The notes beneath the pieces were generated by a model. The model was not told where the DNA came from, did no database searches, and saw nothing but the letters and a program-made list of their open reading frames with translations. This document shows positions 16,340 to 38,186 of a stretch of 64,000 bases of DNA, one piece after another. The stretch covers positions 1,116,001 through 1,180,000 of the forward strand of contig NZ_VTRT01000001.1 in NCBI RefSeq assembly GCF_008274585.1, given 5' to 3'. The position numbers and the translations under genes are program-made. The DNA is from Pedobacter sp. BS3 (GTDB lineage Bacteria > Bacteroidota > Bacteroidia > Sphingobacteriales > Sphingobacteriaceae). Within the stretch, counting starts at the first letter, position 1, and each line of letters starts with the position of its first letter.

Positions 16340-17590
16340 CTATGGCTTTCTGCCACGCACCGCAAGTATAACTAAAACGGATGCCAGGAACAGTGACCCC
16401 GACATAAATAAAAACGATTGTCCGACCTGGCCTGTTCCGTGAAGATAACCCACAATATAAGATCCTACAAAAGAGCCTAAAGCGCCAATACTATTTATCA
16501 ACGCAATAGATACTCCCGCTACGTTGCGGGGTAATGTTTCGGCTATCAGGGCAAAGAAAGGTCCAAACGGCGCACATAATGATGCGCCTGCTATGACCAG
16601 CAGCACAAACGACAACCAGAAATTGCTTGCTCCAACCAAATAAGAACCGTAAAAAGCAAGTGAGCTGATTAACAGAAATGCCCAGACAAATGTCTTCCGG
16701 TTTAAGGTTTTATCAGAGAAATACGACACACTAATCATCCCGATAATGGCAAATGCGTAAGCAATGGATGAAAGCCATCCGGTTTCTACAATATCCATAT
16801 CCGGGGCAGCTTTAATTACAGAGGGCAGCCACATCATAAATCCATACGTGCCGATACTCCATAAAGCAAATTGCAGGCTCAGCAATACCACGAATCTCGA
16901 TTTAAAAGCTGTTACATAATTCTTAACCGGTTTGATATGTTCCTGCTCCTGTTGTAACTGGTTTTCTATAACCTGTTTTTCATGGTCTGACAACCATTTT
17001 ACATCCCGGGGTTTGTCGCCAACCTGTTCCCACCAAAAAAAGGCCCAGATCACCGCGGGTACTCCTTCAATGATAAACATCCCTCTCCAGCCCACCGCGT
17101 CAATTAAATATCCCGATAGAATAGACATCCACAGCATCGTTGCCGGATTGCCCAGAATTAAAAACGAATTCGCCTTGGATCGCTCGCTTTTTGTAAACCA
17201 ATTACTCAACAGTATCAGCATACCCGGCATTACCGCACTTTCAACAACTCCAAGCATAAACCGGATAACGATCAGGATGCTGATATTATTCACTATACCT
17301 GTTATGGTTGCTAATACGCCCCATAATACCAGCGACCAGAAAATCAGTTTTTTTGTGCTTTTGGTTGCAGCATAATGCGCCCCGGGAATCTGGAAAAGGA
17401 AATAACCCAGAAAGAACAGCGATCCCAGCAGGGATACCATCGCCGGCGTTATATTCAGATCGTCGGCCATGCCGCCGGCAGCGGCAAATCCAAAATTTGC
17501 ACGGTCAAGGTAAGCGAGACTATACGTTACAAAAACAATAGGCATCAGGCGATACCATCGTTTGCCGGCGGTTATATTTTGACTGGTCAT
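16340..17590 (-). CDS. MFS transporter, anion:cation symporter (ACS)-like
   Basis: This 416-residue protein has 12 predicted membrane helices in two sets of six with a cytoplasmic loop between (about 195-225). The N-terminus RWYRLMPIVFVTYSLAYLDR is the ACS-family signature of sugar-acid and related carriers (glucarate, galactonate, hexuronate). The motif after helix 2 (HYAATKSTKKLIFWS) replaces the general MFS GxxxDRxGRR motif. RFMLGVVESAVMPGMLILLS is typical of ACS helix 4. It is the last gene of the PUL, 94 bases after the GH20 stop. It probably imports a small acidic or neutral product of the locus; the substrate is inference. Confidence 0.88.
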   Translation of the reverse strand: MTSQNITAGKRWYRLMPIVFVTYSLAYLDRANFGFAAAGGMADDLNITPAMVSLLGSLFFLGYFLFQIPGAHYAATKSTKKLIFWSLVLWGVLATITGIVNNISILIVIRFMLGVVESAVMPGMLILLSNWFTKSERSKANSFLILGNPATMLWMSILSGYLIDAVGWRGMFIIEGVPAVIWAFFWWEQVGDKPRDVKWLSDHEKQVIENQLQQEQEHIKPVKNYVTAFKSRFVVLLSLQFALWSIGTYGFMMWLPSVIKAAPDMDIVETGWLSSIAYAFAIIGMISVSYFSDKTLNRKTFVWAFLLISSLAFYGSYLVGASNFWLSFVLLVIAGASLCAPFGPFFALIAETLPRNVAGVSIALINSIGALGSFVGSYIVGYLHGTGQVGQSFLFMSGSLFLASVLVILAVRGRKP

Positions 17591-17684
17591 TTTAGGTTTA
17601 TAATGTAATTGTGTTGTATGGTTTTGTTCTGATATCCTTTTAAGCCTTTATTAAAAGAACTGAAACAAACTGAATCCGATAAAT

Positions 17685-19331
17685 TCAATTCGCATTACTA
17701 TAGTACTTAAAAAAATCCATCTTCATCTTATCCAAATGCCTGAGATTATAATTTAACCTGCGCAGAAAGCCATTATAATCCTTTTGTGCCAAAGATGTCC
17801 ATCCTACTTCAGCCAGAGCACAGGCCCTCGGAAATGTCATAAACTCAGCGTCTCGTTCATTGGTAACATATTCTGTCCATAAACAGGCCTGCGTACCCAG
17901 AATATACCGGGCTTCATCCGGTGTTAAACCGGCAGGTACCGGATTATAGGAATATACTTTTTCTAAAGGTAAAAAGCCCCCGTTAGAAAAGGGTTCCTGT
18001 TTCCTGTCTTTTGTCTGGTACAAATTCACATAGGTATAAGCGCTGGGTGTCATAATTACCTGATGGTTTTGCCGGGCGGCAGCTATTCCACCTTTCTCGC
18101 CATGCCACGACATCAGCGTAGCATTTGGAGCCAGACCGCCTTCCAGGATCTCATCCCAACCTATAATTTCACGCCCTTTTGAATTCAGGAACTTTTCAAG
18201 CCGGCCGATAAAATAGCTTTGCAGACCATGTTCATCCTTCAGATTCAATGTTCGAATCAGGTTCTGGCAATATGCCGATTCTTTCCACCGGTCTTTGGGT
18301 ACCTCATCGCCTCCGATATGGATGTATTTGCTTGGAAAGATATCCATCACTTCGGTGAGTACGTCCTCCAGGAATTTAAACGTTTCTTCTTTAGGGCAGA
18401 GTATTTCCTTATGCACACCCCAGCGTGTTGAAACTTCATACGTTGTATCGGCTTTGCATCCCAGATTTGGATAAGCTGCCAGTATAGCCTGTGAATGTCC
18501 GGGGACATCTATTTCAGGAATAATGGTCATGAAATGTTTGCCGGCATACGCCACCAGGTCTTCAAGCTGCTGCCGCGTGTAGTAACCGCCATGTGGTTTA
18601 CCATCAAATTTTTCGGGCACATCCAGCCGGTGGCCAACCAAGGTTTCTTTACGCCAGGCAGCCACTGTTTGCAAACGCGGATATTTTTCAATGGCTATCC
18701 GCCATCCCTGATCATCATTGAGATGCAGATGAAGCGTGTTGATCTTATAAAACGAAAGTGCATCGATATACTTTTTTATAAACTCCACCGAAAAAAAATG
18801 ACGGGCCACGTCTAATAACGCCCCGCGATATGCAAAACGGGGAGTATCCTCAATTTGAACGGCTGGAATGGTAAGATTTTTCACATGACCATCTTTTGTT
18901 TCAACATCCGGCGGCATGAGTTGCCGTAATGTCTGAACGGCCCAGAACGCTCCACGCGGGGTTTTATAGTTTATCATCACTATCTTACCCGTTACCGATA
19001 ACTGGTATCCCTCGTCGTTAACGATGGTATTATCTATTGAGAAACAGATACTGTTTTTATGATTTCCCTTATTCCCATAACCCAGCTTATAACCTGTGGA
19101 ATGTTCAATCAACTCAATAAGGAAACCGGCTGCTGTTTTTAATGCCGGATTATTGTTATCCAGGATAACTTTTGTCTTTGCAGTGATATCAAAATACCCT
19201 TTTCCCGGTACAAGTTTTACCGGCTTGGGAATAAGCGGGTAGCGCTCACTCTCCTGCGCATATAAGACCAGGCCCGAAGAAAACAGGTACGCAAAACAGA
19301 TAATTATCCGTAAAAAGGAGGTGTTGAACAT
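17685..19331 (-). CDS. Beta-N-acetylhexosaminidase, GH20
   Basis: This is a 548-residue secreted protein with signal peptide (IIICFAYLFSSGLVLYAQ). The N-terminal GH20b domain begins YPLIPKPVKLVPGKGYF. The catalytic TIM barrel begins at about residue 160 with RGALLDVARHF and NTLHLHLNDDQGWRI. The catalytic Asp-Glu pair lies in HIGGDEVPKDRW (D342, E343). YEVSTRWGVHKEILCP and WGTQACLWTEYV-like LGTQACLWTEYVT complete the pocket. GH20 enzymes remove terminal beta-GlcNAc or GalNAc by substrate-assisted catalysis using the 2-acetamido group. The start is one base after the preceding sialidase-fold gene, which indicates tight co-expression. Confidence 0.95.
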   Translation of the reverse strand: MFNTSFLRIIICFAYLFSSGLVLYAQESERYPLIPKPVKLVPGKGYFDITAKTKVILDNNNPALKTAAGFLIELIEHSTGYKLGYGNKGNHKNSICFSIDNTIVNDEGYQLSVTGKIVMINYKTPRGAFWAVQTLRQLMPPDVETKDGHVKNLTIPAVQIEDTPRFAYRGALLDVARHFFSVEFIKKYIDALSFYKINTLHLHLNDDQGWRIAIEKYPRLQTVAAWRKETLVGHRLDVPEKFDGKPHGGYYTRQQLEDLVAYAGKHFMTIIPEIDVPGHSQAILAAYPNLGCKADTTYEVSTRWGVHKEILCPKEETFKFLEDVLTEVMDIFPSKYIHIGGDEVPKDRWKESAYCQNLIRTLNLKDEHGLQSYFIGRLEKFLNSKGREIIGWDEILEGGLAPNATLMSWHGEKGGIAAARQNHQVIMTPSAYTYVNLYQTKDRKQEPFSNGGFLPLEKVYSYNPVPAGLTPDEARYILGTQACLWTEYVTNERDAEFMTFPRACALAEVGWTSLAQKDYNGFLRRLNYNLRHLDKMKMDFFKYYSNAN

Positions 19332-19332
19332 G

Positions 19333-21096
19333 TTATTTTCTTTTAATGCCTGCGTGAAAATTACTGATGGCCTCGGATGTGGTGAGGTAACGGTTGTACA
19401 ATCTGAGGTTCACAAGGGAGCCATGCAGCGCCGGAGCAAGTTTCCATATCGCATTATTACCTATATTTTGCATTTTATCACTGAATCTGCCCCAGCCATG
19501 TATACGGGCCGTTCCTCCGTCGCATAGTTTTCCATCTACAACAACGGTGATAATATCGGGCAGGCCATCTACAATAAAAACTACATGATGTAATTTGCCT
19601 GCAGCGAGGGTTCCGGGATCGGTATCCCAGCCTTCGGTGTGCTTTCCATCACTTAGTTCCAGCCTTAGCGTATGCTGTGGCGTGGTTATTAAACGGACGC
19701 CTTTACCCTGATTATCCCGGTTATCTAATACAATCTGCCCCGGTTCCATATCTTTTAACTCAAGCCAGAGATCAATTGTAAAACCTCCTTCTTGTAGATT
19801 GGGTAAGGTGCCGGCAGCAACAGTGCTGTTCGCTTTAATACCAGCCTGATTATAAATCAGCCCTTTCCGGATAAGTTTTCGTGCGGTTGGCTGATTCCAC
19901 AGACCTTTCAATAAATCAACATCTACCGCATGGACACGGGCTTTGGTTTTCTGGGTTTCGGTTATCCAATACTTGCCGTCTTGTTCTATCAAATCCGGAT
20001 AACTCATACCGGCATAAGTTAAATCATTGCTATACAGTATAATTTCGGGCTGCGACCAGTAGATTTTACCATTTTTCTCTATTCCCCCGCTAATCCAGGC
20101 AGGATTGCGCCCTTTAAAATCTTTACCTCCATGATTATGAAACCAAAACAGATACTTACCATTAGCGCATTTGAATACCCGTGGACAGGCTCTGGGAGTT
20201 TTGATTGTATTACCGAGGCTATATACAGCCCTTTGAGGCAGCGTCCAGGTCTTACCAGCATCCTGGCTATAGGCATCAGCAGGGAATCCCATTGCCGTAC
20301 GATACATACAATAAATATTGCCGTTGCTGAGTGTAACGGTATTGTGTTCTTCCTGGACTGAACCAAAAGCAGGATTACGTAATCCGGCATCTCCCTCAGG
20401 AAGCATTTGCCAGTGAATTTTACCAGGGTCTTTTTCAAAAGCAATATTATCCGACTTAAACAGCCATCCCTCACCGATATCCTGGGGAAATTTCCCTAAT
20501 TTCGTAAATGCGAAATAGATGCTGCTTTTTATTTTATCAGGTTTATCTATTCCCCAGAACATTTGCACTTTACCCTTAAAATCATTGTTAAAGTCCAGGC
20601 TGGTTTTGCGTACCGGCAAGCGGTAACGTTGCGACCATGTCTTTCCATTATCATCTGAGAATTTGTAGCAATACCATCCCAATAATCCCGCCTGCCGAAT
20701 GGGTTTGCCGTTTACTTTTGAAACATTATCTCCATTATAATTGTAAAAAACATATACCCGTCCATAGGACGTTAGGTACGGAATAGCCCAGGACGAAATT
20801 GGCCCAACATTTGGCTCTATAGCAACCACATCTGACCATGTTTTACCATGATCTACGCTTATTGCAGAAACAATATGTTGACCGGGCCGGCTTTCTGATT
20901 CTGCTCCTGTGGTAAACACACACAACCAGCGCCCGTCTTTTAGTACCACCACATAAGGCTGATCGATATATCCGTTATCATAGATAGAATAACCATTTTG
21001 TATGTTTCTTGGATCTGCAGATTGGGCTAGCACCAGCTTACCTGGCATGCTTAATATTACTATAATAGCCCCGATTATATAGAGAATCTTGTTCAT
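19333..21096 (-). CDS. Sialidase-fold (BNR/Asp-box) protein with C-terminal LamG domain
   Basis: This 587-residue protein has a signal peptide ending LVLAQ (about 25). Three Asp boxes (SxDxGxTW) are visible: SVDHGKTW at 80, SDDNGKTW at 147 and SQDAGKTW at 277. They indicate a six-bladed sialidase-type propeller up to about residue 400. Residues about 415-585 form a concanavalin/LamG jelly roll (GGFTIDLWLELKDMEPGQI, KLHHVVFIVDG, LVNLRLYNRYL). The FRIP/YRIP arginine motif of true GH33 sialidases was not found near the N-terminus. The substrate may therefore not be sialic acid, and exo-sialidase should be a fold-level name only. It lies in the PUL between the isomerase (24-base gap) and GH20 (1-base gap). 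Confidence 0.85.
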   Translation of the reverse strand: MNKILYIIGAIIVILSMPGKLVLAQSADPRNIQNGYSIYDNGYIDQPYVVVLKDGRWLCVFTTGAESESRPGQHIVSAISVDHGKTWSDVVAIEPNVGPISSWAIPYLTSYGRVYVFYNYNGDNVSKVNGKPIRQAGLLGWYCYKFSDDNGKTWSQRYRLPVRKTSLDFNNDFKGKVQMFWGIDKPDKIKSSIYFAFTKLGKFPQDIGEGWLFKSDNIAFEKDPGKIHWQMLPEGDAGLRNPAFGSVQEEHNTVTLSNGNIYCMYRTAMGFPADAYSQDAGKTWTLPQRAVYSLGNTIKTPRACPRVFKCANGKYLFWFHNHGGKDFKGRNPAWISGGIEKNGKIYWSQPEIILYSNDLTYAGMSYPDLIEQDGKYWITETQKTKARVHAVDVDLLKGLWNQPTARKLIRKGLIYNQAGIKANSTVAAGTLPNLQEGGFTIDLWLELKDMEPGQIVLDNRDNQGKGVRLITTPQHTLRLELSDGKHTEGWDTDPGTLAAGKLHHVVFIVDGLPDIITVVVDGKLCDGGTARIHGWGRFSDKMQNIGNNAIWKLAPALHGSLVNLRLYNRYLTTSEAISNFHAGIKRK

Positions 21097-21120
21097 AAAG
21101 TATTTGATTAATGGATTAAA

Positions 21121-21840
21121 TTATACCGATGAACACGCCACCGGATATTCATGACACAAATAATATTTCCGGGCTTCATCTTCCTCAATCTCCGGAAAGC
21201 GTTGTGCATAATCTACCAGGAATACGTTATCGCTCCAATCATCACAAACGCTGGATATTTCATTACTGATAGTATAACCAACACCATCTATTTTGTAACC
21301 GGTACCTTCCTCACCCCAAAACTGATGAATGGTGCGGGGCGGAATACATACGCTCATTCCCGGCTTAAGCCTGATGATACTTCCCGGTTCCATTTTGACG
21401 GTACAGCCATCTACCTGTATTGTAAATCGCTCTGTTGAATGCCGGCCTTCTTCATCGGCCTTGGTTACCTGCACCAGAATATTTCCACCAGCCCGGCAAA
21501 TCAAATCTTCACGCTTTGAGAGATGAAAATGGGCCGGTGCACGCTGAATTTCAGGATCGATCAATAGTTTCTCCGCATACTCTTTAGGATATCCCGTTTT
21601 TCCTTTACGCCCATTGCGCAGGGTAAACAGCACTCTTCCTATATTATAAAAATCTTTACTGTTAAAATCGGTAACGTCCCAGCCCAGCATACAATCACGT
21701 ATTTCATTATATTCTTCTCCTGCCCGTTCCCATTGTTCCGGGCTCCAATTGTAAAAATCAGGAAGTTTTACGTTAAAATGTTCAATTACCAGCTTAGCTG
21801 TATCAATACTGTTATTAATGATGGATCTTGTTAAGTGCAT
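21121..21840 (-). CDS. D-lyxose/D-mannose ketol-isomerase-like cupin
   Basis: This 239-residue cytoplasmic protein has no signal peptide. The metal-binding cupin residues are in APAHFHLSKREDL (HxH with a downstream Glu) and IPPRTIHQFWGEEG (third His). The overall pattern, with N-terminal SPEQWERAGEEYNEIRDCML and GWDVTDF, matches the D-lyxose ketol-isomerase family (formerly DUF1498), which interconverts D-lyxose/D-xylulose and D-mannose/D-fructose. It sits between the GH123-like and sialidase-fold genes with 22- and 24-base gaps. An intracellular aldose-ketose step is thus built into the locus; the true substrate may be a related sugar. Confidence 0.85.
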   Translation of the reverse strand: MHLTRSIINNSIDTAKLVIEHFNVKLPDFYNWSPEQWERAGEEYNEIRDCMLGWDVTDFNSKDFYNIGRVLFTLRNGRKGKTGYPKEYAEKLLIDPEIQRAPAHFHLSKREDLICRAGGNILVQVTKADEEGRHSTERFTIQVDGCTVKMEPGSIIRLKPGMSVCIPPRTIHQFWGEEGTGYKIDGVGYTISNEISSVCDDWSDNVFLVDYAQRFPEIEEDEARKYYLCHEYPVACSSV

Positions 21841-21862
21841 GTATTTATATATAAAAGTTGTT

Positions 21863-23704
21863 TCAATAGATAGTGTCTAAATAGTCAAGCATTTCCTTGC
21901 GTACAGCGTTAAACGTTGCAGGTGAATCTTCATAACCTTTTGGAATAGTTTCTGCCCGGGTGAGGTACGTAGAAAAAGGCAAGTCCTGCCCCTGTTCAAT
22001 TTCGGGAAAGACCAACTTTGCTATCAATTCCTGCGCTTTTGATGGATTAGCAGAACGAAGCTTTGCCAGCAAGGTCGCATCAACCATGCCTTCTCTGAAA
22101 CTTATAATCCGCATAGAAGGTATCAGGCCATTTGGAGATCGGTAATACAACCAGGCATCGCCAGGTGGGTGTCCCGGATTTTGCGATCCGTTAGGGAGCG
22201 GCCCCAATGATGTTTGATATTCATCCGGAACTCCCCGGTATTCATTCGCTGCCCAAAATAAATATCCTGAAGCATTATATTTCATACACAGCCATGGCCA
22301 TAACCGATTCTCAATCAGCGGCTGGTCCAGATGACGGTTAGGATAAGGCGGATAGGGACTTGAGGTATTATATAGCCATATACTCTTATGCTGGCTTAAT
22401 CGATCCTTCACCGCATCATTTTTTTGAAGAATAATACCTGGAAGATTAAAAACCTGTATACCAATCATATCGGTAAACAATTCCGGGTGTGAACTATTGG
22501 CATCTATGGACTTAACAGTCGGCATAGTTCGTTTCAGGATATTATTATAATGCTTATATTCATTCAGGGCCGCAGGTGAAGGCTCATCGTATATATGCTG
22601 TACATAACGGTTTAACATCCCCAGCGTTTGAAGATGATTATTTAAATCTTTAAGAAATGTTTGTTGAAAACATTCAAAGTTAATTTGTGTGCTGCCCAAA
22701 CTAATCGTATTTCCAGTTACACTATCTTTAATAGTAAGGCCTGAACCCATTAACTTCATATGCCGGCCGGCAAAATATTTAAAGCCCAGACTGTCAAACA
22801 TGTGTACCCAACGATCGAATCTGGAATAATCAAATGATAATGTCTTTGTCTGGCTATTCCATAATGTTTGTATGAGTGGATGTGCTGTACTAACAAGTGG
22901 CGTAAACATCGTATTCGCTCCATCTTCCCGCAGCATTTTCCCGGCCCGTTCCAGTAAATTCCAGTGTGCTTCGCTCCACCATTCCACCGAAGTACCGCTT
23001 TTGAGATTTTCAGGCAATTCAGAAAGCCAATGTGTGCTATCCAGGAAATAATCTTCTGGCAGTACGGTTTTGTGTACGGTAAACGAAACCGGGATATTTT
23101 TTTCTATTCCTAACGAGCCCGTGATTTTAATATTCCCCTGATAATGCCCAATGGGGCAATCTGTAGGTACCTGTATTTGTAGTAATACGCCTGCAATTTC
23201 TTCAGCAGGTACATTGATAGCAGTTGTTTGTGTGTCTGCTACTGCCTCCAGAACATCAAATGGTGCAAGCCGTACGAGATAAGGTACCCAGGAATCTGGA
23301 AACGCCCCCCCTGGGACATTAATCATTGAACCCTGTGTATTTCCTTCAACATGCACAGGCAACAGTCGTCTAAAAGCAAATCCACCCGTAAAGGATGTAC
23401 CTTCTTCATTTTTTACGCTGTCAAGCACTATTGTGAATTGCTGCGTGCTCGAACCCGTGATGGCCAATTGCATGCCTAAAGTATAGTTTCGCGGAATATT
23501 AACAGACTGATACCCTGGTTCTGTAACAGGAAAATTATCAGAATAAATACGGGCATACAGGTCTAATAGTTTACATTGAAAATCATTTCCCGTATTAGCT
23601 TCCTTCTTTATAGGGAAAGCTTTATATAATTCTTCCGCCTCTGCAGATATTGTATAAGCAGACAGCAAAGCCAATAAGGCTATCATTCTTCTTATGCCAT
23701 TCAT
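21863..23704 (-). CDS. GH123/DUF4091-like glycoside hydrolase
   Basis: This is a 613-residue secreted protein with a signal peptide ending about residue 23 (SAEAEE region). An N-terminal beta-sandwich (about 30-210, with VLLQIQVPTDCPIGHYQGNI) precedes a TIM-barrel-like catalytic domain. The adjacent Asp-Glu in YVQHIYDEPSPAALNEY (D373, E374) matches the catalytic pair of GH123 beta-N-acetylgalactosaminidases, where the Asp orients the acetamido group and the Glu is the acid/base. Aromatic pocket blocks follow (LWPWLCMKYNASGYLFWAAN). DUF4091 proteins are a related, mostly uncharacterised group, so GalNAc specificity is inference. Gaps to its neighbours are 22 bases on each side. Confidence 0.8.
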   Translation of the reverse strand: MNGIRRMIALLALLSAYTISAEAEELYKAFPIKKEANTGNDFQCKLLDLYARIYSDNFPVTEPGYQSVNIPRNYTLGMQLAITGSSTQQFTIVLDSVKNEEGTSFTGGFAFRRLLPVHVEGNTQGSMINVPGGAFPDSWVPYLVRLAPFDVLEAVADTQTTAINVPAEEIAGVLLQIQVPTDCPIGHYQGNIKITGSLGIEKNIPVSFTVHKTVLPEDYFLDSTHWLSELPENLKSGTSVEWWSEAHWNLLERAGKMLREDGANTMFTPLVSTAHPLIQTLWNSQTKTLSFDYSRFDRWVHMFDSLGFKYFAGRHMKLMGSGLTIKDSVTGNTISLGSTQINFECFQQTFLKDLNNHLQTLGMLNRYVQHIYDEPSPAALNEYKHYNNILKRTMPTVKSIDANSSHPELFTDMIGIQVFNLPGIILQKNDAVKDRLSQHKSIWLYNTSSPYPPYPNRHLDQPLIENRLWPWLCMKYNASGYLFWAANEYRGVPDEYQTSLGPLPNGSQNPGHPPGDAWLYYRSPNGLIPSMRIISFREGMVDATLLAKLRSANPSKAQELIAKLVFPEIEQGQDLPFSTYLTRAETIPKGYEDSPATFNAVRKEMLDYLDTIY

Positions 23705-23726
23705 CGAACAATAAAATTAGTGTAGT

Positions 23727-25502: not shown

Positions 25503-25548
25503 CTTTATATCCTTTGTAGTATACGTTGCCTTTACATATTAGCATCGA

Positions 25549-27711: not shown

Positions 27712-27729
27712 AATTTTTTGCTTTATCTG

Positions 27730-30700
27730 TTATAAAATGGCTTTTAAACTAAATACAATTGTTTTCGCCCTGGGATATGCAGAAAAGTCAAATCCCGGAG
27801 TCAGAATGGAATTTTTCACTGCCACTTCAGGATCCATACCTGTATAATTAGTCCAGGTAAATAAGTTCTGAGCAGAACATCCTAAAGAAAGCTTGCTTAC
27901 TTTTACCCGTTTTAAATATTTGGAAGGTATATCATAATCCAGTGATACTGTTTTTAGCCGTAAATAAGACCCATCTTCTAATGTCATGGACGAATACACT
28001 CCATTTGGTCCTGCTCCTGAATCTGCACCGCCTAAACCTGCTCTAAACATATTGGTATTTTGATTCTCAGGAGTCCAACGGTTATTATAAGATGCAAACT
28101 GATTCATCAGAGGCCTTATATTATAACCTCCTTCAAAATATATTCTATTTGCATTCATAATATCGTTACCATACGACCATTGGAAAAAGATATTGAGCTT
28201 AAAATTTTTGTAAGCAAAATTGTTGTTGAAACCTCCGGTATGAATAGGGAACGCTCTTCCTATAACCGTTCTGTCTTCACTATTAACTATACCGTCATTA
28301 TTCAAATCTCGGTATTTTATATCTCCCGGTTTTATAGAAGCCCGCGGATCTCCATTGGTAGGTACTTCATCTTTAAGTTCATATACTCCGGGCGAAGTTT
28401 CATTGAAATCGCTGTATTGATATACACCATCCCATATAACTCCCCAGAATGACGCTGCAGGCCCTCCTACTTCAGTTCTATATAATGGCGTTCCACTATA
28501 GTTACTGTCCCATGACATGTAGTTGAGCATAAAGGGTTCATTATCATTCAGGGCAAGTACCTTATTCCTGTTAAAACTTATATTGAAACTGCTCTCCCAA
28601 CTAAACGTTCTTCCTTTTACATTTTTAGTGTTCAATGAAATTTCCAATCCTTCATTTTTAAGAGAGCCGACATTTTTAAAGGCTGTAGAAAAGCCCGACA
28701 CTAATGGCAAATTAGCTCGTAACAGTAAATCGCGTACCGTTCTTCTATATATATCTGCCGTCAGGTTAATACGATTTTTAAACATAGAAAGGTCATAACC
28801 AATATTTACCTGTTCAGAGGTTTCCCATTTAAGAGATTCGTTTCCCAAAGTATTGGCTATGGCTCCTCTAGACGGGGTTTGGTTATTAAACGAGTAATAA
28901 TAAGTGTACGGCAGTTCAATGGAGGATAAATAGTCATAATCTCCAACCCTGTTATTACCCGATAGCCCATAACCAATTCTTAATTTTGCATCAGTTATAA
29001 ATTTAACCTGCTTCATAAAATCCTCATCACTCATTCTCCATGCAATTGCTCCGGAAGGGAAATATCCCCATCTGTTACCTGATGGGAATCTGGAAGAACC
29101 ATCAGCCCGATAAGAAGCTGTCAGCAAATATTTAGATTTGAATTTATAGTCAACTCTTCCGAAAAAAGACATTTGCTTTGAATCACTTATAATACTCCTA
29201 TTGGTTACAGGAACTCCCTGATCAAGGCCACTCAGCCCCAACTCCTCATTTGGCACATTTTGGGAACCAAAAGCATAATAACTTGTATTGATACCTTCCA
29301 GGCTGAAGCCTCCCTTAACATCCAGATGATGGTTACCAAAGGCCTTTGCATAAGAGAGAATATTTTCATTAGAGAAAAGCTTATATTGATAGAAATTTGC
29401 TCCACCTTGTACTCCAGCGTACACTACTCCGGGGCGCATAATCCCTCTTCTGGTTTTAGAATTATAGAAATAATTATATTCTCTTAGCCTTTTGTCTGCC
29501 CGGCCATTTACGGTCAGTAATAAGTTTCCGGTAATTTTATATTTGAGAGACAGATTTCCGGTAATTATCGAATTTTTTGTATGCAGATTCTCATTTTCTG
29601 CCATAATTACGGGATTTATCCTGTAGTCACTCGCGGCATTAAGTGTGGGATCTGTCAACTGTGTTTCCAAATCATATAAAGATTCATTAGGGCCTGTAAC
29701 AGGCCTGTATCCCCATATACTTGAAAAGAAAGAGCTGGTTGCTGTACCACTTAATGCATCATCTGCGGCTACGAGCCCTGATGCATGGTTATCCGTATAA
29801 TATAAGCTTAAACCAGTTGATAGTTTTTTATTAATGGTTTGTTCTAATGCAATACGACCATTAAATCTATTGAATGCTGTATTGATGATGGTACCATTCT
29901 GATTATAATAGGAACCTGACACAAGATATTTGGTGCCACCTGTTCCACCACTTACAGAAAGGTTATGTATTTGAACTGTGCCCAGACGAAATACTTTATC
30001 CTGCCAGTCTATAGATTCTGCATTTCTGTATACTTCAGGATCAGGTGTCTCTCCTGCCTGAAGATCAGGATAATAAACTGCCTTCGCATCAGCAGGGAAA
30101 CGCTCTAATTGTAATTTGACAAACTCATATCCATCCATCATCTCCATTCTATTTGTCACCTTATTAAATCCCTGACTACCATTATAAGTAATCCTTGCCT
30201 TCCCTACTTTCCCTTTCTTGGTCTCTATCAGTATTACTCCGTTAGACCCGCGAGCTCCATAAATTGCAGTTGATGAAGCGTCTTTCAAAACGCTTATTGA
30301 TTCCACATTGTCCGGACTTATAGTGGTAGGGTCAAAATTTTCCATCGGAAAACCATCTACTACATACAGCGGATCTGTACTCTGCGTCAACGACCCTACC
30401 CCTCTTATGGTAATATTAGGAGCAGAACCTGGCTGCCCATCATTTGAAGCCACCTGCACACCAGCAACTCTACCCGCCAAGGCATCGGCAAAGGTAGCAA
30501 CAGGAGCTTTTTCCATATCTTCCACACTCACCTGGCCAACAGCGCCTGTTAAATCTCCCTTTCTAACTGTGCCGTATCCTATCACTACTACTTCGTTAAG
30601 TCTTTTGTCTGCGACTTCCAACACTATATTAAGCTGCGCTTGCGAACCTATGGATACTATCCTTGTTGTGTATCCAATATAACTGAACTCTAATTGTCCA

Positions 30701-30909
30701 CTACCCTGAGGGACTCTGATAGCGTATTTCCCATCGCCATTTGTCTGGGTTTTTACAGATGTACCTTTCACCGTTACGTTTACTCCCACTAAAGGTTCAT
30801 TCCCATCTCTTGAGCTTACTAAACCTGTAATTGTTCTATCCTGTGCGTATGACAAAACTGTCAATAAGGAAAAGTACAATAGCAGGCACCATCGAATTGA
30901 TTTAGCCAT
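27730..30909 (-). CDS. SusC/RagA-family TonB-linked outer-membrane receptor
   Basis: This 1059-residue receptor has a signal peptide ending about residue 22 (LLTVLSYAQ). A CarboxypepD_reg-like domain follows (TITGLVSSRDGNEPLVGVNV, then YTTRIVSIGS). Next are the SusC linker LNEVVVIGYGTVRKGDLTGA and the plug (GVQVASNDGQPGSAPNITIR, DPLYVVDGFPM, SVLKDASSTAIYGARGSNGV). A 22-strand barrel completes the protein and ends KTIVFSLKAIL. With SusD it forms the bedbin-type TonB-dependent importer for oligosaccharides. The upstream gene ends 43 bases before the start, so the NHL gene is in the same operon. Confidence 0.97.
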   Translation of the reverse strand: MAKSIRWCLLLYFSLLTVLSYAQDRTITGLVSSRDGNEPLVGVNVTVKGTSVKTQTNGDGKYAIRVPQGSGQLEFSYIGYTTRIVSIGSQAQLNIVLEVADKRLNEVVVIGYGTVRKGDLTGAVGQVSVEDMEKAPVATFADALAGRVAGVQVASNDGQPGSAPNITIRGVGSLTQSTDPLYVVDGFPMENFDPTTISPDNVESISVLKDASSTAIYGARGSNGVILIETKKGKVGKARITYNGSQGFNKVTNRMEMMDGYEFVKLQLERFPADAKAVYYPDLQAGETPDPEVYRNAESIDWQDKVFRLGTVQIHNLSVSGGTGGTKYLVSGSYYNQNGTIINTAFNRFNGRIALEQTINKKLSTGLSLYYTDNHASGLVAADDALSGTATSSFFSSIWGYRPVTGPNESLYDLETQLTDPTLNAASDYRINPVIMAENENLHTKNSIITGNLSLKYKITGNLLLTVNGRADKRLREYNYFYNSKTRRGIMRPGVVYAGVQGGANFYQYKLFSNENILSYAKAFGNHHLDVKGGFSLEGINTSYYAFGSQNVPNEELGLSGLDQGVPVTNRSIISDSKQMSFFGRVDYKFKSKYLLTASYRADGSSRFPSGNRWGYFPSGAIAWRMSDEDFMKQVKFITDAKLRIGYGLSGNNRVGDYDYLSSIELPYTYYYSFNNQTPSRGAIANTLGNESLKWETSEQVNIGYDLSMFKNRINLTADIYRRTVRDLLLRANLPLVSGFSTAFKNVGSLKNEGLEISLNTKNVKGRTFSWESSFNISFNRNKVLALNDNEPFMLNYMSWDSNYSGTPLYRTEVGGPAASFWGVIWDGVYQYSDFNETSPGVYELKDEVPTNGDPRASIKPGDIKYRDLNNDGIVNSEDRTVIGRAFPIHTGGFNNNFAYKNFKLNIFFQWSYGNDIMNANRIYFEGGYNIRPLMNQFASYNNRWTPENQNTNMFRAGLGGADSGAGPNGVYSSMTLEDGSYLRLKTVSLDYDIPSKYLKRVKVSKLSLGCSAQNLFTWTNYTGMDPEVAVKNSILTPGFDFSAYPRAKTIVFSLKAIL

Positions 30910-30952
30910 AACCTGATTTTTTAAATGTTTATAAATTGAATGTAGAATAAAT

Positions 30953-32791
30953 TTATTCTATCACTATTTTTTTAGTGCTTATACCGTCTACTTCTAACAG
31001 ATAAATTCCTGCAGGTAATTTTTTAGAAATATTTACAGATATCTCATTATCTATCACTTCCAGCTCTTTCTGAAATACTGCTTTACCATTCAAGTCAATT
31101 ATTTTCACCAGTTTTAGTTTATCAATCGTATTTATTCCCGATATTGTAAACTTCTCTGCACTTACAGGATTAGGAAAAACTTTCCAGCTGTTAAAATCAG
31201 TTAAACCCACATTAACAGACTTCAATCCCAATTCCTTGTATACACCATCTTTATCTGTCTGCACAAGTTTGTAATAATTGATACCCGGGTTTGGATCTGA
31301 ATCTGTATAAATATAGTTACCTCCCTCATTTCCTTTAGAATCTATTCTGGTATATATTTTAAAGTCCTTTCCATCTGTACTCCTTAGTATATTGAAATGG
31401 CTGTTATTAGTCTCCGACGAAGTTTTCCATATTAATTCTACACTTCCGTTAGTTAACAAACTAACCGAGTAATCAACCAAAGACACCGGTAAAGCCGCTT
31501 CTACTGTAATATTGATTGTTGCGGTACTACTGCCTGATGTATTATATGCGGTAACGGTATAATCTGTGGCTGGAGAAATCTCTGTTGGTGTTCCGCTGAT
31601 TATACCTGTTGTAGCATCAAAACTTAAACCTGCTGGTAGCTGTGGGCTTATTGTATATCCTGTTGTGCTTATTTTTCTAATCCTATCATTAGTATAATCA
31701 GCAACATATAGGTTTCCTGAGGCATCTATCGCCACATCTGCTGGATTTTTAAAACTTGCCTCTGTGCCTATACCATCTGCTAAAGCTCCTGTCCCGCTTC
31801 CGGCTAAAGTAGTTACTATACCAGAAGGACTCATTTTTCGTATTTTATGATTATTATAATCTGCTATGTACAGATTTCCCGCATTATCAAAAGTTAATCC
31901 AAAAGGTCCATTAAAACTTGCATCTGTATCAATAGGACCATCATTAGAACCACCACAAGGACAGATATTTAATGTTTCCACCTGAGCTGTTGTGGCATTA
32001 ATTTTTCGTATCCTGTTATTACCATTATCACTTACATAAATATCTCCTGTACTGCTCACAGCAATACCGACAGGATTATTAAATCTTGCATCAGTTCCTA
32101 TGCCATCCAAAGCACCAGATTGATTTGAACCAACAGGCGCACCAGCAAAAGTTACCACATCTCCAGTTGGTGAAACTTTACGTATCTTATGCCTTGCTCT
32201 GTCTGCTACATACATATTGCCCGAGGCATCAAATGCCATCCCAAAAGGTAAGTAGAATTCAGCGGAAACGGCATCACCATCTGCATCCCTATTACCTGCT
32301 GCACTACCAGCCCCGGAAAAATGAGTTTGCACTCCTGCCGAAGTAATTTTACGTATAATATTACCTTGGTCTGATGCATATATATTTCCCGATGCATCCA
32401 CCGCCACTCCTAAAGGATTATTAAATTTTCCATCTGCCAATACACCAGAAGAACTGGTAACACCTGCAAGAGTACTTACAACACCTTCTGGAGTTATTTT
32501 TGTTATTCTATGGTAAGCCCTATCAGCAACATAGACATTCCCAGAGGCATCTACTGCTATACCTTGGGGTCTGGAAACACCTCCTGCTGCCCCAGCAACA
32601 GTAATGGTACTTACCTGTCCATAAATTGTAGCAGGTACAGCTCCTCCTGTATTAACAGGGTTTAAAGGAGAAATTGCCGTGTTTTGTGTAAACACATTTG
32701 ATACATTGTAGCTAATAACCGGAGCCTGAGCCAATGTGATGCTTGTACCAGAAAACATCAAAAAAACGCTTAATAGTAGTTTTCTTTTCAT
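30953..32791 (-). CDS. Secreted NHL six-bladed propeller protein with T9SS sorting domain
   Basis: This 612-residue protein has a signal peptide ending SITLAQ (21). Six NHL repeats of the form GxAxDxSGNxYVADxxxxRIxKI make one propeller (about 60-375); examples are GIAVDASGNVYVADRAYHRI and DVAIDASGNLYVADYTNDRI. A putative-Ig domain follows (GLSFDATTGIISGTPTE, TDYTVTAYNTSGSS). Next come a fibronectin-like segment (about 432-530) and a type A T9SS sorting domain (WKVFPNPVSAEKF, ending STKKIVIE). It should be exported by type IX secretion and held at the surface. It is a paralogue of the last block of the larger neighbour. With SusC 43 bases downstream, it leads the SusCD genes. Its function is unknown. 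Confidence 0.9.
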   Translation of the reverse strand: MKRKLLLSVFLMFSGTSITLAQAPVISYNVSNVFTQNTAISPLNPVNTGGAVPATIYGQVSTITVAGAAGGVSRPQGIAVDASGNVYVADRAYHRITKITPEGVVSTLAGVTSSSGVLADGKFNNPLGVAVDASGNIYASDQGNIIRKITSAGVQTHFSGAGSAAGNRDADGDAVSAEFYLPFGMAFDASGNMYVADRARHKIRKVSPTGDVVTFAGAPVGSNQSGALDGIGTDARFNNPVGIAVSSTGDIYVSDNGNNRIRKINATTAQVETLNICPCGGSNDGPIDTDASFNGPFGLTFDNAGNLYIADYNNHKIRKMSPSGIVTTLAGSGTGALADGIGTEASFKNPADVAIDASGNLYVADYTNDRIRKISTTGYTISPQLPAGLSFDATTGIISGTPTEISPATDYTVTAYNTSGSSTATINITVEAALPVSLVDYSVSLLTNGSVELIWKTSSETNNSHFNILRSTDGKDFKIYTRIDSKGNEGGNYIYTDSDPNPGINYYKLVQTDKDGVYKELGLKSVNVGLTDFNSWKVFPNPVSAEKFTISGINTIDKLKLVKIIDLNGKAVFQKELEVIDNEISVNISKKLPAGIYLLEVDGISTKKIVIE

Positions 32792-32877
32792 ATTACTTTA
32801 ATTACGAGTTAACAAATTGATTGACAGAAACTTGCTTCAAAAGCATTATCCTTTACTCAAAGATGCATCGAAATTTA

Positions 32878-32923
32878 CTGCTCAACTCATACGAAATTGC
32901 CCAATATCAATGCTATTCTATCT
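32878..32923 (-). promoter_or_regulatory. Duplicated upstream element, copy 2 (before the 612-residue NHL gene)
   Basis: This segment shares the core CATACGAAATTGCCCAA and flanking CTGCT...TCAAC and CTATTCTATCT-like parts with 37174-37221. It lies 87-132 bases upstream of the NHL start on the minus strand; the other copy lies 68-115 bases upstream of the paralogue's start. Similar position before two paralogous genes suggests a shared control site, perhaps for the AraC regulator encoded at 37317; the regulator link is inference. Confidence 0.5.
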
Positions 32924-33020
32924 TTATATAAATTACAAAAACAGATTTGAAACAGAATAGTATTTACCATGAAGTAAGAGAGCTTGAAATTTGAGCCTGT
33001 CTCCAAAAGCAATACTATCA

Positions 33021-36000
33021 TTAACGTATGAATATCTTTTTTACCCCCAATTCCTGTACCTGCACCATATACATGCCTGGCATTAATCGGGATGGAAGAT
33101 ATATATTAGCTTGCCCGTCATTTACGGTCAAGCCTTTGCTGAACACTATTCGTCCGGTCATATCATAAATTTTCACAATCTTTTCCTTTGAGGCAGCAAT
33201 TGGCACAACTATTCTAAACCATCTGTTATCAACAGGATTGGGGTAAATGCTCCAATCTGCTTTTATTAAATTTTCAGGGTTAATTTCTACTCTCATATTT
33301 TCATTACCAGTAGGCCGAGAAGCTAATAGCAAGTCATCTGATACTTCGATACTAATGGTATCAGAGCTGCTACCTGCACTATTATATGCTGTAACAACAT
33401 AATCTGTAGCTGGCGATACTACGGTAGGTGTACCACTAATAACACCTGTTTTGTTATCAAATGTTAACCCAGTTGGCAGTGACGGATTGATAGTGTAACC
33501 AGTGGTTACAATTTTCCTAATCCTATCATTAAGATAATCTGCTACATACAGGTTTCCATCTGCATCCGCTGCCACATCCGCCGGATTTTTAAAACTCGCA
33601 GCAGTGCCTATTCCATCTGTTAACGCTCCGGTCCCACTACCGGCAAGTGTACTTACAGTTCCAGTCGGTGCTATCTTACGAATTTTATTATTAGTATAAT
33701 CAGCTATATAGAGGTTACCAGCACCATCAAATGCCATTCCGAAAGGGCCATTAAAGCTTGCAGTCGCTACCGAGCCATCAGCCGATCCGGCACTCCCTGT
33801 CCCTGCAAATGTTGTTACTTCACCTGTCGAGGTAATTTTCCGGATTTTATTGTTATTAAAATCCCCAATATAAAAATCCCCTGCCTGACTGATTGCGATT
33901 CCTACCGGGTTATTAAACTTGGCACTTGTTCCTGTGCCATCAATAGACCCTGCCGTACTACCAGCGAAAGTACTTACGGTACCAGATACGGTTACTTTAC
34001 GAATTCTATGATTTGCACGATCCGCAACATACAGGTTTCCTGTTGAGTCCAGGGATAATCCAAATGGGTAATAGAAACTAGCTGATGTGCCTGCACCGTC
34101 AGATGATCCTACTGAACCGTCTCCGGCAAGTGTACTTACCTGCCCCGCCGGACTAATTTTCCGGATACGCTCATTCTGAATATCAGAAACATAAACATTA
34201 CCAGCACTATCTATAGCAATATCAGACGGATTATTAAACATGGCTGTGGCACTTGAACCATCTGCAAACCCTGCGGTTCCGCTGCCTGCAAGAGTACTTA
34301 TAGTTTCTTGCGGAGTAATTTTCCTAATCCTGTGATATGCCCGATCAGCGATGTATACATTACCAGATTTATCAATTGCAATACCTTGCGGCCTTGAAAC
34401 ATCTCCGCTGATAGTTATTGTACTTGTTTCACCATAAGTGGTAGCTGGAACAGGGCCACCAGTGTTTACAGGAGCTATAGGCGTAATGATTTGATTTTTA
34501 ATATAATTCTGCACATCCGGATAAGCTATGTGTGGCGGGGTATTTATAATTTCTATATTTAGAGTATCCGAACTATTACCAGCCTGATTATAAGCCGTAA
34601 TAATATAATTTGTAGCGGGCGATACGGCCGAAGGCGTTCCGCTAATTACTCCTGTTGCGGCATTGAGAGACAACCCTCCCGGTAATTCAGGATTAATAGT
34701 GTAACCTGTGATAGTAATTTTTCGAATTTTATTGTTACCGTCCGCTACATATAAGTTTCCTATGTTATCTGTTATTACATCAACCGGATACTTAAAACTA
34801 GCGGCACTGCCTATACCTTCTGCCAAGCCGATTGTGCCACTTCCCGCAAGAGTACTTACTATACCAGAAGGAGTGATTTTTCGGATTTTTTGATTATTAT
34901 AATCTGCCACGTACACATTTCCCAGATTATCCACCGTTACACCAAACGGATTAGTGAAACTGGCAGCTCCGCCAATACCATCAGCAGAACCAGGGCTGGT
35001 TTGACCTGCTAAAGTACTGACTACGCCTGCTGCAGTAATTTTCCGAATCCGGTTATTCGTGTAGTCACCAACATATATGTTGCCAGCACTGTCAACCGCA
35101 ACTCCTACCGGATTGTTAAATTTTGCAGTTAGCGGATTACTTGAATCTGCAAACCCCGCAGTGCTCCCTGCTATTGTAGTCACTACTCCCACCGGAGTAA
35201 TTTTCCGTATCTTATAGTTATAACGATCGGCGACATATACATCTCCTGACCGGTCGACAGCAAGACCAAAAGGATAATTAAATTTTGCGGCACTACCCGT
35301 ACCATCAGCAAAACCTGCAGTTCCAACAGTACCGGCCAGCGTGCTGACAACCCCTGCCGGGGTGATTTTTCTTATTGTATGATTCCGCATGTCAGAAATA
35401 TACAAGGTACCGGAACTATCAATTACAATTCCGGCCGGTTCATTAAAACTGGCACCCGTTCCTGTACCATCTGCCGAACCAGCTACACCGCTACCTGCAA
35501 ATGTGCTAACTACACCTGCAGGGGTGATTTTTCGTATTCTATGATTATAACGATCGGCCACATAAATATTTCCTGTATTGTCTGCAACCATTCCATAAGG
35601 TGTCTTGAATTTTGCTGTTGTACCTACACCATCCGCAAAGCCATAACTTCCACTGCCTGCAAATGTGCTGGTTTCACCATAGGCAACTACAGATGGCACA
35701 CTACCACCATTATTCACGGGAATAAGTAATGGAATTTCTTTATTTTTCACATAAATCTGCCCTGCCCCATAATTAATATCAGGAGATAAGTTATCTATTA
35801 CTTGAATACTTACAGTATCAGAACTATTCCCTGTTCTGTTATATGCCGTAATGATATAATCTGTTATGGGTGCTACTGCTGTTGGCGTACCACTGATTAT
35901 ACCTGCGGTAGCATCAAAATTTAACCCGGCTGGTAATGACGGCCTAATGGTAAAACCAACTGTTGATATTTTTCGGATAACGTTTCCGGTAAATTCGGCT

Positions 36001-37106
36001 ACATAGAGATTACCAGTTCTGTCAACAGCAATTCCAAAAGGATTATTGAAACTAGCCGAATCTCTTACACCATCCATAGAACCGCTACAGGCACAACCGG
36101 CCAGCGTACTTACCATCCCAGCGGAAATTTTCCGGATTTTTTGATTCCCATAATCGCTCACATATATATTTCCTATACTATCAACAGCCACACCAACCGG
36201 ATTATTAAAACTTGCTACCGTATCAATGCCATCGATTGAATTCGCGGCACCACTACCCGCTACAGTACTTACTAAGCCTCCGGGAGTAATCTTTCGTATT
36301 CTATGATTGGCTCGATCAGCTACATACAGATTTCCGGTTCTGTCAACAGCAATCCCAAAGGGATAATTAAACTTTGCCGCACTGCCTGTACCATTTGCAA
36401 AACCTGCTGTACCAACACTACCGGCAAGTGTACTTACTACTGCAGCGGGAGTAATTTTCCGAATTGTTTGATTCTGTAAATCAGAAACATACAGGTTTCC
36501 GGCAATATCGATGGCAATTCCACCAAGTTCACTGAAACTGGCTGATGTACCTGTACCATCTGCAGAGCCCACAGCACCACTGCCGGCAAATGTACTGACT
36601 ACACCTGCCGGGGTAATCTTCCGTATCTTATGATTATAACGATCAGCTACATAAATGTTGCCTGAAGTATCTACAGCCACCCCGTAAGGATTATAAAAGC
36701 TTGCCGATGCCCCTGTACCATCTGCAGAGCCCACAACACCACTACCTGCCAATGTACTGACTACACCTGCCGGGGTAATCTTTCGTATTTTATTATTCGC
36801 TCTGTCAGCTATATACAGATTACCTGAAACATCAACTGCCACTCCCACCGGCGAATTAAAAGTGGCTGCTATCCCCGTGCCGTCAGTCGAGCCGGCAATG
36901 CCACTGCCAGCAAATGTGCTTACCTCACCATATACAATAGCTGGAATTTCTCCACCAGTATTAATTGGTTCCAAGGGGACAATCGTTTTGTTTTTTATGT
37001 AAACCTGAGATTTGTTATATATTATATATGGTTCTTGCGAATAAAGTTGCTCATGGCACAATAACACAATAGCCGCCAACCAACTTATTAGTAAATACCT
37101 TTTCAT
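33021..37106 (-). CDS. Secreted triple NHL-propeller protein with T9SS sorting domain
   Basis: From the ATG at 37104-37106 the protein is 1361 residues. This start is preferred over one 26 codons upstream because it gives a clean signal peptide, MKRYLLISWLAAIVLL. Three similar blocks follow. Each has an opening strand with PVNTGG or a variant, six NHL repeats (18 in all, such as GVAVDVSGNLYIADRANNKI), and a putative-Ig domain (GLNFDATAGIISGTPTA and variants). The end is a T9SS sorting domain (DWSIYPNPVDNRWF, MPGMYMVQVQELG). It thus carries three six-bladed propellers on the cell surface or released. It is the first gene of the PUL strand, divergent from the AraC gene. Block 3 is closest to the 612-residue paralogue. 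Confidence 0.9.
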   Translation of the reverse strand: MKRYLLISWLAAIVLLCHEQLYSQEPYIIYNKSQVYIKNKTIVPLEPINTGGEIPAIVYGEVSTFAGSGIAGSTDGTGIAATFNSPVGVAVDVSGNLYIADRANNKIRKITPAGVVSTLAGSGVVGSADGTGASASFYNPYGVAVDTSGNIYVADRYNHKIRKITPAGVVSTFAGSGAVGSADGTGTSASFSELGGIAIDIAGNLYVSDLQNQTIRKITPAAVVSTLAGSVGTAGFANGTGSAAKFNYPFGIAVDRTGNLYVADRANHRIRKITPGGLVSTVAGSGAANSIDGIDTVASFNNPVGVAVDSIGNIYVSDYGNQKIRKISAGMVSTLAGCACSGSMDGVRDSASFNNPFGIAVDRTGNLYVAEFTGNVIRKISTVGFTIRPSLPAGLNFDATAGIISGTPTAVAPITDYIITAYNRTGNSSDTVSIQVIDNLSPDINYGAGQIYVKNKEIPLLIPVNNGGSVPSVVAYGETSTFAGSGSYGFADGVGTTAKFKTPYGMVADNTGNIYVADRYNHRIRKITPAGVVSTFAGSGVAGSADGTGTGASFNEPAGIVIDSSGTLYISDMRNHTIRKITPAGVVSTLAGTVGTAGFADGTGSAAKFNYPFGLAVDRSGDVYVADRYNYKIRKITPVGVVTTIAGSTAGFADSSNPLTAKFNNPVGVAVDSAGNIYVGDYTNNRIRKITAAGVVSTLAGQTSPGSADGIGGAASFTNPFGVTVDNLGNVYVADYNNQKIRKITPSGIVSTLAGSGTIGLAEGIGSAASFKYPVDVITDNIGNLYVADGNNKIRKITITGYTINPELPGGLSLNAATGVISGTPSAVSPATNYIITAYNQAGNSSDTLNIEIINTPPHIAYPDVQNYIKNQIITPIAPVNTGGPVPATTYGETSTITISGDVSRPQGIAIDKSGNVYIADRAYHRIRKITPQETISTLAGSGTAGFADGSSATAMFNNPSDIAIDSAGNVYVSDIQNERIRKISPAGQVSTLAGDGSVGSSDGAGTSASFYYPFGLSLDSTGNLYVADRANHRIRKVTVSGTVSTFAGSTAGSIDGTGTSAKFNNPVGIAISQAGDFYIGDFNNNKIRKITSTGEVTTFAGTGSAGSADGSVATASFNGPFGMAFDGAGNLYIADYTNNKIRKIAPTGTVSTLAGSGTGALTDGIGTAASFKNPADVAADADGNLYVADYLNDRIRKIVTTGYTINPSLPTGLTFDNKTGVISGTPTVVSPATDYVVTAYNSAGSSSDTISIEVSDDLLLASRPTGNENMRVEINPENLIKADWSIYPNPVDNRWFRIVVPIAASKEKIVKIYDMTGRIVFSKGLTVNDGQANIYLPSRLMPGMYMVQVQELGVKKIFIR

Positions 37107-37316: not shown

Positions 37317-38186
37317 ATGAAACCAGTTTTAATGCGTCATGTAGAAGCGTACAGCGAATCATTTAAATCATGGAAAAATGAGAAACCTTACCGCCATAAT
37401 CCCTGGCATTATCACCCGGAATGTGAGATAACCTTTATCATTAAAGGCAGCGGTATCCTGTTTATTGGCGACCGGGTTTTAAATTATTCGGAAAATGAGC
37501 TGGTATTGATCGGCCCGAATCTGCCGCATGAATGGCGGAGCAACATCAAAGAGGATCCTGACAACTATTCACAATCAATAGCCGTTCATTTTAAGCCCGG
37601 TTCATTGGGAAATGATTTTTACAAAATTCCCGAAATGCAACCCATTAACTTGCTATTAGAGCAATCTGTCAGGGGAATTGCTATCCAAAGCAATCCTGTT
37701 AAAGAAACGGTGAAGAATAAACTTATCCAGTTAATTGAAACTCAGGGAGTAGAACGCATTAGCCTCCTGTTATCTATATTGAGCAGCATTACCCGTACCG
37801 ACAAAATAAGCTTTCTATCCAGCACCAGCTTTGTGGATTCCATTCAAAACGACCATGATCACCGGATTAATAAAGTATATAAGTATGTGATGACCAATTT
37901 CAAAAATCAGCTATCGATAGATCAGATTGCTGCAGAGATCTCCATGACACCTACTTCTTTTTGTCGTTTCTTTAGAAAAAGGATCAATAAATCGTTCGTA
38001 CAGTATGTCAATGAAATACGCATAGGTTATGCCTGTAAGCTGCTATACGAAGACAAATTCAGCATTTCACAGGTGGCTTTTGAATCCGGATTTGACAACT
38101 TGTCTAATTTTAACAAGCAATTTAAAAAGATCAAACAGGTTACCCCCAGTCAGTTTATTTTACAGATCTCAAAAAAAAGCGATTAA
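37317..38186 (+). CDS. AraC-family transcriptional regulator (PUL regulator candidate)
   Basis: This 289-residue protein has an N-terminal cupin sensor domain (WHYHPECEITFIIKGSGILF, then NLPHEWRSN) and a C-terminal pair of helix-turn-helix motifs. HTH1 is QLSIDQIAAEISMTPTSFCR; HTH2 contains SISQVAFESGFDNLSNFNKQ and ends FKKIKQVTPSQFI, the AraC hallmark. It is transcribed divergently from the PUL, with a 210-base spacer holding the duplicated element. It probably senses a sugar released by the locus and switches on its promoter. Hybrid two-component or sigma/anti-sigma regulators are more usual for PULs; none is present here. Confidence 0.93.
   Translation: MKPVLMRHVEAYSESFKSWKNEKPYRHNPWHYHPECEITFIIKGSGILFIGDRVLNYSENELVLIGPNLPHEWRSNIKEDPDNYSQSIAVHFKPGSLGNDFYKIPEMQPINLLLEQSVRGIAIQSNPVKETVKNKLIQLIETQGVERISLLLSILSSITRTDKISFLSSTSFVDSIQNDHDHRINKVYKYVMTNFKNQLSIDQIAAEISMTPTSFCRFFRKRINKSFVQYVNEIRIGYACKLLYEDKFSISQVAFESGFDNLSNFNKQFKKIKQVTPSQFILQISKKSD

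Follow-up and report, generated by a model that had tools for sequence, protein, structure and literature searches.

A polysaccharide utilization locus of Pedobacter sp. BS3 with a sialidase-fold protein of altered active site and a LamG module shared by SusD and an esterase

The DNA stretch analysed here, called the window below, comprises 64,000 nucleotides of Pedobacter sp. BS3 (assembly GCF_008274585.1, contig NZ_VTRT01000001.1, positions 1,116,001 to 1,180,000). Its minus strand carries, at window positions 16340-37106, a polysaccharide utilization locus (PUL) in which a protein with the sialidase fold lacks the first arginine of the sialidase active site, and in which the SusD-like lipoprotein and the adjoining esterase share a laminin G-like (LamG) module. 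Tentatively, and at a little under even confidence, we read it as a PUL for an acylated glycan with beta-linked N-acetylhexosamine (HexNAc), likely N-acetylgalactosamine (GalNAc), capped by a sugar other than sialic acid.

The sialidase-fold protein (BNR; 19333..21096) was recognised, like most domains reported here, by Pfam and NCBIfam profile searches, matching BNR_2 with 50.8 bits and carrying Asp boxes; a LamG_3 domain (58.1 bits) forms its C-terminus. The AlphaFold2 (AF2) model, calculated with 30 sequences, has a predicted local distance difference test score (pLDDT) of 90.1 and a predicted template modelling score (pTM) of 0.90. GH33 sialidases are its top matches in a structure search (for NanA, 2vvz, Z is 35.2 and the root mean square deviation 2.9 over 325 residues), and it has their six-bladed fold. 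A profile search of the PDB also returned sialidases, the best being NanB (E 2.3e-11), while the major histocompatibility complex chains returned by a single-sequence search of the PDB (best E 0.046) were discarded as chance matches.

For the sialidase RgNanH, PMC4510645 gives an arginine triad of Arg257, Arg575 and Arg637, a catalytic pair of Glu559 and Tyr677, and Asp282 as acid/base. Glu250 and Arg266 of BNR fall on Glu559 and Arg575, with an equal spacing of 16, and the profile alignments agree with this assignment, both those to sialidases in the PDB and those to sialidases encoded in related genomes. The RIP motif of the first arginine (Arg1) aligns without gaps, through the subsequent P and KDG, to Asp45-Gln46-Pro47, and the position of the acid/base aspartate, counted back from the first Asp box, is taken by Glu68. 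Arg330 and Tyr366 correspond to the third arginine (Arg3) and the catalytic tyrosine; these two were read from motifs because the C-terminal portion of the propeller aligned poorly in the profile comparison. BNR has the Glu/Tyr pair of GH33 (Glu250, Tyr366), but neither the complete carboxylate-binding arginine triad, Arg1 being Asp45, nor an aspartate as acid/base.

Genome contigs scanned with BNR yielded 24 loci, many of them short, and the window protein was aligned with 30 copies from 23 of these. Asp45, Gln46, Glu68, Glu250, Arg266, Arg330 and Tyr366 are identical in all 31 rows. Left out were locus L089, in which the match is split in two pieces, apparently two frames, and a divergent copy with 27% identity (L088:12056-13183); the copies of one genome, G516, were used in the tree only. 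Because Arg1 has become Asp45 and the acid/base aspartate Glu68, we do not call BNR a sialidase, and it probably is not one. The catalytic pair is retained, as are two of the arginines, but an acid stands where sialidases bind the carboxylate; we infer an active glycosidase acting on a sugar that lacks the C1 carboxylate of sialic acid.

The genome has another locus with sialidase-type proteins. PF13088 has 12 matches genome-wide. On contig C25, at 204-230 kb (region 203000-231500; L146, L147), several BNR proteins, of which one has BNR_assoc_N and BNR_3, lie together with GH31, DUF2961, an MFS carrier, a sodium symporter with a fused NanM-like domain and a member of the DHDPS family that, among NCBIfam models, matches N-acetylneuraminate lyase best (176 bits, cut-off 281). 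No N-acetylneuraminate lyase or N-acetylmannosamine epimerase gene was found among the genes at 16340-38186. Judged by its genes, the C25 locus, rather than the PUL in the window, looks made for sialic acid. Asp45, present in 31 of 31 rows, and this separate locus led us to reject a sialic-acid PUL as the leading reading. A preliminary description of the window had proposed a host-type, fungal or bacterial amino-sugar glycan with acyl groups; the amino-sugar part is retained, with its HexNAc-ase families and esterase, and any leaning towards a host-type sialylated glycan through the sialidase-fold protein is not supported.

The gene set recurs outside Pedobacter. Chitinophaga alhagiae has it in the arrangement of the window, except for an extra GH123 gene beside that of the SGNH esterase and for the second NHL gene, which stands after SusD; identities to the window proteins are 60% for AraC, 52% and 58% for the NHL proteins before SusC and after SusD, 56% for SusC, 67% for SusD, 56% and 54% for the two GH123 enzymes, only 36% for the SGNH esterase, 76% for the PF07385 protein, 62% for BNR, 61% for GH20 and 70% for MFS. 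The cluster of Coprobacter secundus has SusC (58%), SusD (52%), an SGNH esterase with LamG (47%), GH123 (48%), BNR (55%) and GH20 (50%); next come an SBF carrier in place of the MFS carrier, another BNR and NHL proteins. In the BNR tree, the window protein groups with those of C. alhagiae and C. secundus in a single clade (support 100/99), although the two species belong to separate families, Chitinophagaceae and Barnesiellaceae. Because C. alhagiae holds the set from regulator to MFS carrier in matching arrangement, the gene combination is not a product of chance, and the window cluster is a real, recurrent unit.

Most of the remaining BNR relatives in the 24-locus scan belong to Planctomycetota, Lentisphaerota, Sumerlaeota and Hydrogenedentota, which with Bacteroidota are the phyla in which BNR proteins were found. 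At 1e-10, BNR matched one of 395 genomes of the phylum, its own; at 1e-3, nine of 100 genomes matched, i.e., its own and eight weakly (best 26.7 bits), with no match in the sole other genome of the genus tested. Between two and five BNR genes stand together in each of Maribellus, Dyadobacter and a Cytophagales metagenome-assembled genome (L088, L068, L090); a sulfatase and URO-D-like proteins lie near the group in Maribellus, and a URO-D-like protein near that in the Cytophagales genome. The PF07385 gene adjoins BNR copies in Dyadobacter bucti and in genome G516. A ribokinase-type gene (TIGR02152, above cut-off) near the Dyadobacter cluster is possibly part of it. G516 (L060, L106) has, besides the PF07385 gene, several BNR copies, an SBF carrier, SusC/SusD, GH95 and two CoA-transferases, with RraA-like, MR_MLE and 2-hydroxyacid dehydrogenase proteins in the vicinity.

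In the window, the genes are transcribed in the order NHL1, NHL2, SusC, SusD, SGNH esterase, GH123, PF07385 protein, BNR, GH20 and MFS carrier, on a single strand throughout and with intergenic gaps of 1 to 94 bases from NHL2 through MFS. As in other Bacteroidota PULs, the susC and susD homologues are adjacent, and carbohydrate-active enzymes (CAZymes), esterase, carrier and regulator lie in one conserved cluster. The profile searches recovered all the parts that had been named earlier downstream of SusC and SusD: GH20, a GH123/DUF4091-like enzyme, the sialidase-fold protein, the SGNH esterase, an isomerase and a carrier. The SusC-like TonB-dependent transporter (27730..30909) has plug and TonB barrel domains and matches TIGR04056 with 907.8 bits; the SusD-like surface lipoprotein (25549..27711; 720 amino acids) matches PF07980 (SusD_RagB) and PF14322 (SusD-like_3).

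Among the enzymes, the GH20 beta-hexosaminidase (17685..19331) scores 391.5 bits against PF00728 (gathering threshold 22.3), with the catalytic pair Asp342-Glu343 in the motif GGDE. The GH123/DUF4091 beta-N-acetylgalactosaminidase (21863..23704) scores 141.6 bits against PF13320 (GH123_cat; gathering threshold 23.1) and has the Asp-Glu pair noticed earlier, Asp373-Glu374 in HIYDEP. Its best solved relative, 8k2j (E 9.6e-39), is deposited as an oligosaccharide/monosaccharide-releasing beta-N-acetylgalactosaminidase and is among the entries deposited with PMC11087588, which reports DUF4091-based beta-GalNAcases of oligosaccharide- and monosaccharide-releasing types. These have the GH123_cat domain and DE motif in common with the window enzyme, which, however, is only about 30% identical to the nearest protein in genomes of its taxonomic family (27 of 201 have GH123 matches) and 48-56% identical to those of the sister PULs. 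The SGNH esterase (23727..25502; GxDLY and GDSL_3, PF14606 with 199.8 and PF14607 with 138.4 bits) has the motif residues Ser417, Asp565 and His568, and it matches 4lhs (E 1.1e-70), an uncharacterized protein. The earlier proposal of a PUL that combines two families of beta-HexNAc-ases with an SGNH esterase is supported.

The D-lyxose/D-mannose isomerase family protein, a presumably cytosolic cupin (21121..21840), matches PF07385 (Lyx_isomer) with 254.2 bits against a threshold of 20.8, and shares HFH, KRED and a later H with E. coli D-lyxose isomerase 3kmh (E 5.5e-48); in a four-row comparison, G516 has a Y for one F of HFH. PF07385 was matched in 9 of 201 genomes, and, besides the genome's own protein, only that of G516 exceeds 70% identity. 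The MFS carrier (16340..17590), encoded by the last gene of the run, matches PF07690 (MFS_1) with 214.8 bits and, as best NCBIfam model, TIGR00893 (D-galactonate transporter) with 262 bits, below the cut-off of 395. The TIGR00893 match fits the ACS subfamily named earlier.

Residues about 424-630 of SusD (25822..26442) match the N-terminus of the adjoining esterase (24837..25400) with a score of 390 versus at most 59 in 100 shuffles, and the two copies are 44% identical; the esterase copy scores 20.9 bits with Laminin_G_2, below the gathering threshold. The SusD proteins of C. alhagiae and C. secundus are without this stretch, their flanking parts aligning contiguously. The Coprobacter esterase has the module (35% identity) and the C. 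alhagiae esterase is without it. In a sample of six including strain BS3, the latter has two copies, Coprobacter one and the other four none. Among 296 genomes of the phylum the module was found in BS3 only; among 395 of the class it was found in BS3, plus one 28-bit match (77 of 204 positions, in a frame of 1586 amino acids), which was counted as an ordinary LamG domain and not as a copy of the module (the three samples overlap). The LamG_3 domain of BNR was not clearly related to the two modules (scores of 45 and 48 versus shuffle maxima of 55 and 45).

In the simplest history, the esterase would have held the module first and SusD would have received a duplicate of it. Given how far the two have diverged, the event is not recent, and the second module is no artefact of assembly. 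The SusD model, from a six-row alignment, has a pLDDT of 44.4, too low to place the insert on the SusD surface; its beta-strands at 479-618 are compatible with a LamG fold. PMC11216935 treats LamG domains in PULs as likely glycan binders on DUF1735 proteins. In the BT3986-type surface glycan-binding proteins described there, LamG3 likewise serves a PUL at the surface, but stands behind DUF1735, whereas the window modules are inside SusD and on the esterase.

We propose that the LamG module of SusD would help to keep the glycan close to the pore of SusC, which would import oligosaccharides. Once these are in the periplasm, the SGNH esterase with its LamG module may strip acyl groups, the sialidase-fold enzyme may take off a terminal sugar, and GH123 and GH20 may take off the HexNAc units. 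The MFS carrier would move a product over the inner membrane, and the PF07385 protein could convert an aldose of the D-manno or D-lyxo type to a ketose. Of this picture, the gene content, its conservation as a unit, the BNR fold, the Asp45 and Glu68 replacements and the sharing of LamG are shown. Where the proteins act in the cell was judged visually, from signal-like N-termini and from the lipobox of SusD; we likewise infer the order of steps, the substrate and the glycosidase activity of BNR. It is quite possible, if speculative, that the BNR proteins are an undescribed family of sialidase-fold glycosidases that kept the Tyr/Glu machinery and turned from nonulosonic acids to an aldose through the replacements of Arg1 by Asp and of the acid/base Asp by Glu; in the PUL, the released sugar would be passed to the D-lyxose-isomerase-type enzyme, and SusD and esterase would share, in the inserted LamG, one recognition domain for the same glycan. 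The family may already have a PULDB or CAZy entry.

Several observations weigh against this proposal. The PF07385 protein reaches 205.7 of the 350 bits required by the D-lyxose/D-mannose isomerase equivalog of NCBIfam, so its substrate may be a different one; the PF07385 gene was not seen in the C. secundus PUL within the DNA fetched. Within the fetched DNA, the BNR relatives outside Bacteroidota are without other window-like PUL genes, and of the 24 loci, short as many are, two have PF07385 beside BNR, two GH123, two GH20 and three an SGNH gene. The motif-based assignment of Arg3 and the tyrosine adds to these points. Finally, carriers of the TIGR00893-type MFS and SBF kinds would suit an acidic product equally well, as would the sugar-acid-type enzymes near the C. 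secundus and G516 clusters.

The main rival is an acidic sugar other than sialic acid: BNR would free a uronic or other ulosonic acid, held by the two remaining arginines, from an amino-sugar glycan, anion carriers would import it and the PF07385 protein isomerise it. In addition to the carriers, an HpcH/HpaI aldolase, an IlvD/EDD dehydratase and a 2-hydroxyacid dehydrogenase near the Coprobacter PUL, and the RraA-like, MR_MLE and 2-hydroxyacid dehydrogenase proteins near the G516 cluster, speak for it. However, an aspartate at the Arg1 position would be expected to repel a carboxylate, and no such acid-catabolism genes are among the PUL genes of the window; those in the other genomes may belong to neighbouring operons. 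We regard this rival as doubtful. Unlikely, too, is that BNR is an inactive, lectin-like beta-propeller in an ordinary PUL for GalNAc/N-acetylglucosamine oligosaccharides with an esterase. Two catalytic-site positions deviate from GH33 and a LamG domain follows the propeller, as this would lead one to expect, but Glu250, Tyr366, Arg266, Arg330 and Glu68 are invariant in the 31 rows and over several phyla, which suits a catalytic site.

The nan operons of Tannerella and Bacteroides contain a sialidase, an SGNH esterase, GH20, MFS and SusC/SusD. That the window cluster is such an operon for sialylated host glycans, with BNR as sialidase, a NanS-like SGNH esterase, GH20 and a sialate MFS behind SusC/SusD (NanO/NanU), is highly improbable: the parts list is similar to that of nan operons, BNR has the GH33 fold and SusD matches the NanU model with 58.1 bits, but the cut-off of that model is 425 bits, Arg1 is Asp in every row, the PUL is without a lyase or epimerase gene and has instead a PF07385 protein and GH123, and sialidases occur, along with a lyase-family protein, a NanM-like protein and a separate MFS, in the C25 locus.

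Two NHL-repeat proteins with type IX secretion system (T9SS) sorting tails (PF01436, PF18962) head the PUL, at 30953-37106: NHL2 (30953..32791) and, 229 bases upstream of it, NHL1 (33021..37106), which has an in-frame ATG start at 37106 and a homologue in C. alhagiae. NHL-type proteins are also present in both sister PULs. The preliminary description had missed them as members of the unit, as it had the isomerase family and the LamG module common to SusD and esterase. Ahead of NHL1, on the plus strand, lies the divergent AraC-type regulator (37317..38186; PF12833, PF02311), found at the same place in C. alhagiae. Just past it is a PD-(D/E)XK transposase-family gene (PDDEXK_2; 38635-39588), which may point to mobility at this edge of the PUL.

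Every enzyme of the PUL except BNR belongs to a known family. BNR shares the six-bladed fold, Asp boxes, Glu/Tyr pair, Arg2 and Arg3 with GH33 sialidases, but differs from them in Asp45, Glu68 and the C-terminal LamG_3; the cluster differs from other Bacteroidota PULs in the LamG module inserted in SusD and in the NHL/T9SS proteins at its head. The combination had not been recognised as a described PUL, in line with limited literature searches (PULDB and CAZy not covered) that found no described PUL with a D-lyxose isomerase or with GH123, GH20, sialidase and esterase together, nor any description of a SusD with laminin G.

If our reading is correct, the carboxylate clamp of a sialidase site can be given up and another sugar accepted with the tyrosine nucleophile still in place, and this would bear on why sialidases use tyrosine at all. 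BNR proteins occur widely in little-studied phyla, and assaying a single member would assign a function to many of them. A lectin module shared with an enzyme of the same PUL and inserted in SusD would allow a direct test of how SusD proteins gain new glycan specificity.

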